Shown: positions 59,768-61,933 of the stretch, in pieces
Position numbering within the stretch: the stretch's first letter is position 1
Layout: every line of letters begins with the position of its first letter
Source: Herbiconiux moechotypicola
GTDB lineage: Bacteria > Actinomycetota > Actinomycetes > Actinomycetales > Microbacteriaceae
Direction of reading: 5' to 3'
NCBI RefSeq assembly: GCF_024979255.1
Contig: NZ_JANLCN010000007.1
Span: 1 to 64,000, forward strand
DNA: 64,000 nt
Program-made: the position numbers and the translations under genes
Notes under the pieces: generated by a model
What the model was told of the DNA's origin: nothing
The model's database searches: none
Seen by the model: only the letters and a program-made list of their open reading frames with translations

Positions 59768-59884
59768 ATGAAGGTCAACCCCAGCGTCAAGCCCATCTGC
59801 GAGCACTGCCGCGTCATCCGCCGCAACGGCCGCGTGATGGTCATCTGCAAGTCGAACCCGCGTCACAAGCAGCGCCAGGGCTAG
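59768..59884 (+). CDS. rpmJ: 50S ribosomal protein L36
   Basis: 38 residues: [20 protein letters not shown] and ending NPRHKQRQG. The zinc-binding set (Cys11, Cys14, Cys27, His33) is complete, so this is the C+ form. AAGAAAGAAACGAAC precedes the ATG. Confidence 0.97.
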
Positions 59885-59898
59885 TCCCACCCATACAA

Positions 59899-59999
59899 CG
59901 GCAGTGCCAGAAGCGGCCCGGTGCGAACCGGGCCGTGGACACCCCCGGTAGGAGGCCGGGGCACAGGCACTGTCGCAGACCTCCACTCATCACCAGGAG
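59899..59999 (+). ncRNA. Three-way-junction RNA in the rpsM leader, possible switch
   Basis: P1: 59899-59908 with 59966-59975 (10 bp, one G-U). P2: 59914-59922 with 59927-59935 (9 bp, GCGA tetraloop). P3: 59943-59948 with 59956-59961 (6 bp) with loop TAGGAGG (59949-59955). The loop GGAGG is complementary to CCTCC at 59980-59984 (pseudoknot), while CTCC can instead pair with the rpsM Shine-Dalgarno GGAG (59996-59999). The position equals that of the S4-binding alpha-operon leader of E. coli, but I do not recognise this structure. Confidence 0.6.
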
Positions 60000-60008
60000 A
60001 TAGCCGCC

Positions 60009-60386
60009 ATGGCACGTCTAGCAGGAGTCGACATCCCCCGCGACAAGCGCGTGGAAGTCGCACTGACCTACATCTACGGGGTGGGCCGCACGCGCGCGCT
60101 CAAGACCCTCGCCGACACCGAGATCTCGGGCGACATCCGCGTCAAAGACCTCACCGACGACCAGCTCGTCGCCCTCCGCGACTACATCGAGGGCAACTAC
60201 AAGGTGGAGGGTGACCTCCGCCGCGAGGTCGCCGCCGACATCCGCCGCAAGGTCGAGATCGGCTCGTACGAGGGCGTCCGCCACCGTAAGGGCCTCCCGG
60301 TCCGCGGTCAGCGCACCAAGACCAACGCTCGCACCCGCAAGGGCCCGAAGCGCACCGTCGCCGGCAAGAAGAAGGCCGGCCGCTAA
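60009..60386 (+). CDS. rpsM: 30S ribosomal protein S13
   Basis: 125 residues. [36 protein letters not shown], and the basic C-terminus [20 protein letters not shown] are typical; S13 contacts S19 and P-site tRNA. AGGAG lies 9 nt before the ATG, downstream of the junction RNA described at 59899. First gene of the alpha-type operon. Confidence 0.98.
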
Positions 60387-60417: not shown

Positions 60418-60816
60418 ATGGCAACCCCCAAGTCGGCCGTTCGCAAGCCGCGCAAGAAAGAGAAGAAGAACGTCGCCGTGGGCCAGGCCCACATCAAGTC
60501 GACCTTCAACAACACGATCGTCTCGATCACCGACACCACCGGTGCGGTCATCAGCTGGGCCTCCTCGGGTGGCGTCGGCTTCAAGGGCTCGCGCAAGTCG
60601 ACCCCGTTCGCCGCGCAGCTGGCCGCCGAGTCGGCCGCCCGCCAGGCGCAGGAGCACGGCATGAAGAAGGTCGACGTGTTCGTGAAGGGTCCGGGCTCCG
60701 GCCGCGAGACCGCGATCCGCTCGCTGCAGGCCGCCGGCCTCGAGGTGGGCTCGATCAACGACGTGACCCCCCAGGCGCACAACGGCTGCCGGCCGCCCAA
60801 GCGCCGTCGCGTGTGA
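60418..60816 (+). CDS. rpsK: 30S ribosomal protein S11
   Basis: 132 residues: [40 protein letters not shown] and [16 protein letters not shown]. In many actinobacteria rpsD (S4) follows; here a hairpin and rpoA follow instead. Confidence 0.98.
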
Positions 60817-60835: not shown

Positions 60836-60870
60836 CACCGGCAGAGCACGTTCGTCGTGCTCTGCCGGTG
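60836..60870 (+). terminator. 15-bp hairpin between rpsK and rpoA
   Basis: Perfect 15-bp stem: CACCGGCAGAGCACG (60836-60850) and CGTGCTCTGCCGGTG (60856-60870), loop TTCGT. No T tract follows, so it may be a partial terminator or an RNase-processing/stability stem. Confidence 0.55.
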
Positions 60871-60943: not shown

Positions 60944-61933
60944 GTGCTCATTGCACAGCGCCCCACTCTCACCGAGGAGAACATCTCGGAGTTCCGCTCG
61001 CGGTTCGTCATCGAGCCGCTGGAGCCCGGCTTCGGCTACACCCTCGGCAACTCGCTCCGCCGCACCCTGCTCTCGTCGATCCCCGGCGCGGCCGTGACGA
61101 GCATCCGCATCGACGGCGTGCTGCACGAGTTCTCCACCATCCCCGGGGTGAAGGAGGACGTGACCGAGATCATCCTCAACGTCAAGGGCCTCGTCGTCTC
61201 CTCCGAGCACGACGAGCCGATCACCGCCTACCTCCGCAAGCACGCGGCAGGCGAGGTCACCGCGGCCGACATCTCGGCCCCGGCCGGTGTGGAGATCCAC
61301 AACCCCGAGCTGGTCATCGCCACACTCAACGACAAGGCGAAGTTCGAGCTCGAGCTCATCATCGAGCGCGGCCGCGGCTACGTGTCGGCCACCCAGAACC
61401 GCAGCGAGTTCTCCGAGGCGGGCCAGATTCCGATCGACTCGATCTACTCGCCCGTGCTGAAGGTCACCTACCGCGTCGAGGCCACCCGTGCCGGCGAGCG
61501 CACCGACTTCGACCGCCTCGTGGTCGACGTCGAGACGAAGCCGGCCATCTCGCCGCGCGACGCCATCGCGTCGGCCGGCCGCACGCTCACAGAGCTGTTC
61601 GGTCTGGCACGCGAGCTCAACTCGGCCGCCGAGGGCATCGAGATCGGCCCCGCGCCGGTCGACGCCGTTCTCTCCTCCGAGCTCTCGGTTCCGATCGAAG
61701 ACCTCGACCTGTCGGTGCGCTCGTACAACTGCCTCAAGCGCGAGGGTATCAACACCGTCTCGGAGCTCGTCGCGCTCAGCGAGACCCAGCTCATGAACAT
61801 CCGCAACTTCGGCCAGAAGTCGGTCGACGAGGTGAAGGACAAGCTCGTCGAGCTCGGCCTGTCGCTGAAGGACACGGTTCCCGGGTTCGACGGCGCGCAC
61901 TTCTACGGCGGCTACGACGACGAGAACGTCTGA
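60944..61933 (+). CDS. rpoA: RNA polymerase alpha subunit
   Basis: 329 residues. GTG start with AAAGGAAT upstream. The N-terminal dimerisation domain has [20 protein letters not shown], and the C-terminal domain has [20 protein letters not shown] and [17 protein letters not shown] (the alpha-CTD helix-hairpin-helix). It follows a 127-nt gap with a hairpin and a dyad, so it may be partly uncoupled from rpsM-rpsK. rplQ follows. Confidence 0.99.

Follow-up and report, generated by a model that had tools for sequence, protein, structure and literature searches.

The stretch of Herbiconiux moechotypicola DNA analyzed here (64,000 nt of contig NZ_JANLCN010000007.1; hereafter, the window) contains the genes infA, rpmJ, rpsM, rpsK, rpoA, and rplQ in that order, with a putative RNA leader between rpmJ and rpsM. 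The genes were named from their translated open reading frames (ORFs) and, except for rpsM, also from gene order; all features located below lie on the forward strand. The upstream neighbor of the leader, rpmJ, occupies 59768–59884, and the first gene past it, rpsM, is an ORF of 125 amino acids (60009–60386, ATG at 60009) encoding ribosomal protein S13. It is followed by rpsK (S11; 60418–60816), rpoA (RNA polymerase alpha; 60944–61933), and rplQ (L17; 61990–62571). Of the 124 nt from the rpmJ stop (59884) to the start of rpsM (60009), most is leader. Within the rpsK–rpoA gap, 60836–60870 is an inverted repeat whose 15-bp arms match perfectly around a 5-base loop; it may be another leader, or a processing element, ahead of rpoA.

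The predicted fold begins 14 nt past the rpmJ stop with the helix P1, whose strands CGGCAGTGCC (59899–59908) and GGCACTGTCG (59966–59975) form 10 bp, one G.U pair among them. Within P1, an AGAA junction (59909–59912) leads to the hairpin P2 (59913–59936), a GGACAC junction (59937–59942) leads from P2 to the hairpin P3 (59943–59961), and a CACA junction (59962–59965) leads back to P1. P3 has 6 bp (59943–59948 with 59956–59961) and a TAGGAGG loop (59949–59955), of which GGAGG (59951–59955) can pair with CCTCC at 59980–59984, forming a pseudoknot (PK1) ahead of the Shine-Dalgarno sequence GGAG of rpsM (59996–59999), which is itself complementary to CTCC. A leader peptide at the GGAGG loop was considered and dismissed by eye. 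These elements had been proposed in an earlier note on this DNA, and their positions are confirmed; the note's 9-bp P2, capped by GCGA, is right as to hairpin and loop but has 10 bp (59913–59922 with 59927–59936) when the outer G.U pair is counted.

Judged on the window sequence alone, the leader pattern is modestly unusual. The fold of 59880–60030 contains P1–P3 at −68.1 kcal/mol (z = −3.26), with one of 200 shuffled sequences folding as well, and elsewhere in the window 82 of 6363 stretches reach the leader's score in a parser with scoring of its own. It is because relatives covary, rather than from the window sequence alone, that we judge P1–P3 and the pseudoknot between loop and CCTCC to be a real conserved structure.

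Among 65 Microbacteriaceae sequences (the window and 64 relatives), 24 of the 31 pairs in P1, P2, P3, and the pseudoknot change on both sides: nine of ten in P1, all ten in P2 (whose length and sequence vary among relatives), three in P3 (the other three never vary), and two of five in PK1. Paired cells amount to 89.5% in the alignment, versus 72.5% in shuffles and 33.6–51.0% with the partner slid by one to three columns; the figure is 97.4% for P3 and 99.7% for PK1. Matched changes in PK1 within the family include GAGAGG/CCTCTC (L054, L062), CGAGG/CCTCG (L067), AGAGG/CCTCT (L070), CGAAGG/CCTTCG (L079), TGAAGG/CCTTCA (L082), and TCGGGAG/CTCCCGA (L083). The earlier note had asked whether P1–P3 and GGAGG/CCTCC covary in relatives or drift; covariation was found, with the loop and CCTCC changing together. 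Letters 2, 3, 4, and 6 of the GGACAC junction are invariant in the 65 sequences, and the first three of AGAA are at least 90% conserved. The alignment comprises 65 of 75 distinct family leaders, omitting seven near-duplicates from the genus (L003, L006, L010, L011, L014, L016, L017) as well as L031, L038, and L040; besides the window, eight rows were fetched with leader-containing DNA and 56 with rpsM, among the best matches listed.

A query of leader-containing DNA matched all 16 genomes of the genus. The covariance model that the earlier note had proposed building matches 357 of 398 family genomes and 81 of 85 genera (E <= 0.001), and its single match in the window's own genome is the leader itself. 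The parser score exceeds that of all 30 dinucleotide shuffles in 64 of the 75 family loci. Four genera (g11, g13, g15, and g81) gave no covariance-model match among the members listed; these members have genomes of about 0.7–1.7 Mb, and genome reduction may have caused loss or alteration of the leader there. Four other family genomes (G068, G235, G236, G312) have two matches apiece.

Outside the family the model is narrow and gives many partial matches (33 of 296 genomes of the actinomycete class at E <= 0.01, 14 of these being family members), and class loci were therefore fetched via rpsM and read with a custom parser. In all 30 fetched loci with a class model match, rpsM lies downstream of the match. 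By reading, the same layout recurs in most of the class loci fetched with rpsM, and 73 of 105 class loci, of which the model had picked 16 and the family supplies 4, outscore all 30 of their shuffles in the parser; among those fetched via rpsM alone and lying outside the family, the count is 59 of 85. None of 40 rpsM upstream regions from other classes of the phylum beats all 30 shuffles. The parser misreads about a dozen class loci (L111, L117, L143, L153, and others); by eye, L127 and L133 have no such leader and L163 is doubtful.

In a class alignment of 75 sequences, PK1 has 53 cells changed on both sides, where shuffles give 14.0 and none of 500 gets as high, and five of its seven pairs change on both sides, compared with 2.7 in shuffles (reached by 10 of 500). 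Examples are CTGAGG/CCTCAG (L130), TCAAAGG/CCTTTGA (L138), CACCAGG/CCTGGTG (L164), and CGACAG/CTGTCG (L197). The alignment combines six family sequences with 69 of the 101 other class loci fetched, leaving out 32 that are leader-less, partly misread, or long; the parser demands loop pairing, and the alignment is thus uninformative on prevalence. In L194, L200, and L125, scored as unpaired by the parser, the loop and the downstream strand pair by eye with one bulged base.

An exact-pattern scan of a collection holding one genome for each of 84,980 species returned at least 120 loci. Among the matches listed, 115 of 120 stop no more than 80 nt from the start of an rpsM gene; the remaining five have no rpsM in the surrounding stretch, lie mostly in apparent coding sequence, and are taken as chance. 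Named matches include Streptomyces, Nocardia, Micromonospora, Frankia, Cellulomonas, Arthrobacter, Cryobacterium, Leifsonia, and Nocardiopsis. Two general marks of ribosomal-protein leaders are present: covariation directly 5' of a ribosomal-protein gene and, among the matches listed, association with ribosomal-protein operons only. From these comparisons, much of the actinomycete class carries the predicted leader before rpsM.

The earlier note had further proposed a two-state switch in which CCTCC pairs either with the P3 loop, leaving translation on, or with the Shine-Dalgarno sequence, turning it off, with a ligand shifting the balance. The window sequence permits both pairings, and a folding program that draws no pseudoknots places a CUCC/GGAG hairpin in its leader; pairing of at least 4 bp with the Shine-Dalgarno sequence is possible in 63 of the 65 family sequences and strong in 58. 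In isolated duplexes, however, loop pairing is the more stable (−7.0 versus −3.7 kcal/mol), and CCTCC is complementary to any GGAG without selection. We compared 136 distinct leaders, 111 with canonical CCTCC and 25 in which this strand has changed. Among the canonical leaders the loop pairs in 111 of 111, and strong Shine-Dalgarno pairing is possible in 92, versus 28.8 from shuffled strands, because any GGAG Shine-Dalgarno sequence is complementary to CCTCC. Where the strand has changed, the loop still pairs in 25 of 25 (the parser that demands loop pairing selected the 18 from outside the family but not the seven from within it), whereas strong Shine-Dalgarno pairing occurs in 4 of 25, against a shuffled expectation of 4.0. 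A weaker tendency is seen when pairings of at least 4 bp with G.U allowed are counted (15 of 25 versus 10.1 expected), and such pairing is still possible in six of the seven changed family leaders (3.5 expected). Since loop pairing is kept and strong Shine-Dalgarno pairing falls to chance, evolution appears to follow the loop, and mutually exclusive pairing is not supported as a selected feature. We regard the switch as improbable overall, although it is possible in those leaders that keep CCTCC.

Beyond the Microbacteriaceae, an extra hairpin, P4, usually sits where the CACA junction of the window connects P3 to the closing strand of P1. Its loop often reads GGGC, with a GCCC partner between the Shine-Dalgarno sequence and the ATG of rpsM, forming a second pseudoknot (PK2). 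Matched changes include CCGGGCTG/CAGCCCGG (L161), GGGCATT/AATGCCC (L169), CAGGCG/CGCCTG (L138), CTGGGCT/AGCCCGG (L172), and GGATGG/CCATCC in Phycicoccus and Tetrasphaera. Pairing of each P4 loop with its own start region scored 750.4 over 87 class leaders, whereas 2000 permutations that ignore relatedness averaged 505.7 (sd 40.7, maximum 635.2); 37 of the 87 score at least 13, versus 10.0 expected, and 34, including loci of family f26, score zero. The 87 are drawn from 101 loci, 11 misread or leader-less loci and three without the hairpin having been dropped. For 80 leaders from named genomes, partly of the same species as the 87, the score was 615.0 versus 437.4 (sd 33.5, maximum 558.4), again with permutations that ignore relatedness, and 24 scored high versus 8.1 expected. 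Neither the window leader nor the 65-sequence family consensus has a P4 hairpin, and we infer that the three-way layout of the window's family was reduced from a four-way one in which both pseudoknots are present. Families f25 (L104, L108, L114, L201) and f19 (L192, L195) include leaders whose P4 loop is complementary to the Shine-Dalgarno sequence itself and not to the downstream spacer (e.g., CCTGG/CCAGG, ACTTCC/GGAAGT).

Against Rfam 15 the window has no match that reaches threshold, and ten class relatives have none that is meaningful; around the leader there were weak, unrelated matches to CC0196 (other strand, E 0.12), sX6 (E 2.1), and HOTAIRM1_1 (E 2). The literature searched, with subscription papers largely outside it, holds no description of this RNA or of alpha-operon regulation in actinobacteria, which agrees with the earlier note, where no described RNA of this layout was known. 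One article, in the text available, says that there is almost no information on such regulation for phyla like Actinobacteria (PMC8470358). The 5' UTR of rpsM in Mycobacterium tuberculosis has been reported as abundant and 216 nt long, and as similar to that of rpoA, with coordinate regulation with rpoA suggested by the authors (PMC3207917); set beside the window by description only, it is likewise a long rpsM leader in an actinomycete, but the report, as far as it was available, describes no structure, pseudoknot, or wider family.

The best explanation, in our view, is that the element is a ribosomal-protein feedback leader of the alpha operon rpsM–rpsK–rpoA–rplQ, to which we assign a probability of roughly 0.7. 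RNA-leader feedback is a known mode of control for this operon, according to the accessible part of a 2024 review (PMC10931766). The leader RNA would fold into the P1–P2–P3 junction, locked where the P3 loop pairs with CCTCC a short way ahead of the rpsM ribosome-binding site; surplus ribosomal protein would bind and stabilize this fold, and the bound leader would lower translation of rpsM together with that of any genes coupled to rpsM. Where PK2 exists, repression could come about through masking of the start region. In the window's family, in which PK1 only is seen, the 30S subunit might be obstructed or trapped next to the Shine-Dalgarno sequence; a block of translation by folding in the Microbacteriaceae, which have neither P4 nor PK2, is the weakest step of the proposed mechanism. 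Of the earlier note's proposal of a ribosomal-protein leader, the structured leader of the alpha operon survives, the two-state switch is not supported, and S4, one of its two candidate ligands, is weakened for reasons that follow.

The leader might instead respond to S4, as a counterpart or remote kin of the pseudoknot in the E. coli alpha operon, with S4 acting in trans where rpsD has moved; this is unlikely, though a serious contender. PK2 joins a hairpin loop to the start region, as happens in the E. coli alpha-operon RNA. Among the matches listed, most of the class sample has rpsD as a neighbor of rpsM, and in 42 of 114 named loci the two genes are no more than 3 kb apart. The same loci, on the other hand, include 50 in which the leader is present with no rpsD in at least 2 kb past the rpsM start (the remaining 22 are too short to tell), and the leader is also present at class loci for which only a separate S4 is listed (among them L122, L150, L179, L185, L186, L192, L195, L201, and L204). 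In the window's genome, the single S4-family match is on another contig, outside the alpha operon, and the covariance model finds no leader copy before this rpsD; elsewhere, none of 20 regions upstream of separate rpsD genes beats all 30 shuffles (start codons were called by script, those of L211, L212, and L223 being doubtful). Among the matches listed, a divergent S4 lies outside the operon in the window's own family, in f2 and f19, in most of f25, and in part of f23, and in other families rpsD adjoins rpsM. Zinc-binding and zinc-free forms of S4 have been described in Actinobacteria, according to the accessible part of one study (PMC3087516). The leader may be older than the relocation of rpsD.

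For S4 speaks also its role elsewhere: it is the proven regulator of the E. coli alpha operon via the rpsM pseudoknot, as stated in the accessible part of the 2024 review, which covers S4 in E. coli and Bacillus and calls the diversity of alpha-operon gene order, with rpsD elsewhere, unexplained (PMC10931766). The corresponding Rfam family, Alpha_RBS (RF00140), is likewise an rpsM leader in the alpha operon with a pseudoknot at or near the ribosome-binding site (PMC10931766, in part). Its hairpin loop pairs at the start region, as in many of the class relatives but unlike in the window, which has no hairpin loop paired to the rpsM start region, whose first pseudoknot lies upstream of the Shine-Dalgarno sequence, and whose operon lacks rpsD. 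The window falls below the 38-bit gathering threshold of Alpha_RBS, and the best of the ten class loci, the sole weak match (L122), reaches 19.3 bits. Homology to Alpha_RBS via this locus was rejected, since the match rests largely on rpsM coding letters and on a different pairing.

A survey of 20 new ribosomal leaders, as far as its text was available, reports rpsM leaders in Clostridia and Fusobacteriales that are predicted feedback leaders like that of the window, and assigns S4 as their ligand (PMC7247131). They bear a conserved GAAA or GUAA, the GUAA of the Firmicutes and Fusobacteria leaders being said to imitate 16S rRNA (PMC7247131); neither is a conserved element in the 65-sequence family consensus, which lacks the GUAA that marks S4 leaders. 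The available main text does not use the word pseudoknot, and these leaders are compared here by text alone (PMC7247131). The survey's L17 leader of Actinobacteria and Proteobacteria concerns a gene that is also in the window's operon, but it is listed, in the text available, for rplQ and not for rpsM (PMC7247131).

The leader is kept with or without rpsD and does not show at the 20 separate rpsD genes, which favors a ligand encoded within the operon, S13 or S11, and weakens S4. If the element is a ribosomal-protein leader, its ligand would in our judgment be S13 or S11, taken jointly, with a chance somewhat short of even; S4 would have a smaller though substantial chance, and L17 or something else a modest one. 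Neither S13 nor S11 is known to us as the ligand of any leader or the regulator of any other bacterial operon, and the literature searched, some of it available in part, names no leader that either protein binds. That a class-wide leader, ancestrally with two pseudoknots, answers to S13 or S11 instead of S4 is proposed tentatively, as one possibility.

The structure might instead need no protein ligand and serve, for example, to set the basal level of translation, to affect how stable the mRNA is, to direct RNase cleavage between rpmJ and rpsM, or to terminate transcription. The short gap between the rpmJ stop and P1 makes processing between the genes conceivable, and a ligand for the leader is a prediction from comparative analysis. 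Against this, the invariant letters of the P2/P3 junction and the conserved letters around P1 and P3 suggest a recognized surface and not bare stability, the tight association with rpsM fits autogenous control, and by eye the window has no T run after the helices as in an intrinsic terminator. We give such ligand-free action a slim chance and consider feedback by a ribosomal protein on the leader likely.

As a widespread cis-acting RNA for which no earlier description was found, the predicted leader is well supported in structure and position. Its range takes in much of the class, with Streptomyces among the carriers, and the structure is defined closely enough for pair-by-pair tests. The alpha operon of actinobacteria encodes two or three 30S proteins together with RNA polymerase alpha, and the leader, which probably helps set the output of rpsM, rpsK, and rpoA, bears on control of the operon where rpsD lies elsewhere. 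Should S13 or S11 prove to be the ligand, production of small-subunit proteins and RNA polymerase alpha would be coupled to one of these proteins.

Two further kinds of conserved sequence were seen near these genes. Upstream of separate rpsD genes, L221, L222, and L225 have TTAGGTTAGGCTCACCTAA-like palindromes, which resemble an iron-regulator (DtxR/IdeR) box, and L215–L219 share a different conserved stretch around GCCTTACCTGGGATTCCC, with one letter differing in L218. Just upstream of P1, an AACT[GC]AA[TC]A element recurs (L008, L009, L030, L033, L037, and others) that resembles the boxA signal of actinobacterial rRNA leaders; it is absent from 40 loci of other classes and occurs once in the 64-kb window with both strands scanned, whereas 17 of 105 class loci have it ahead of the leader, as do 33 of 86 family entries, some of which are duplicates.
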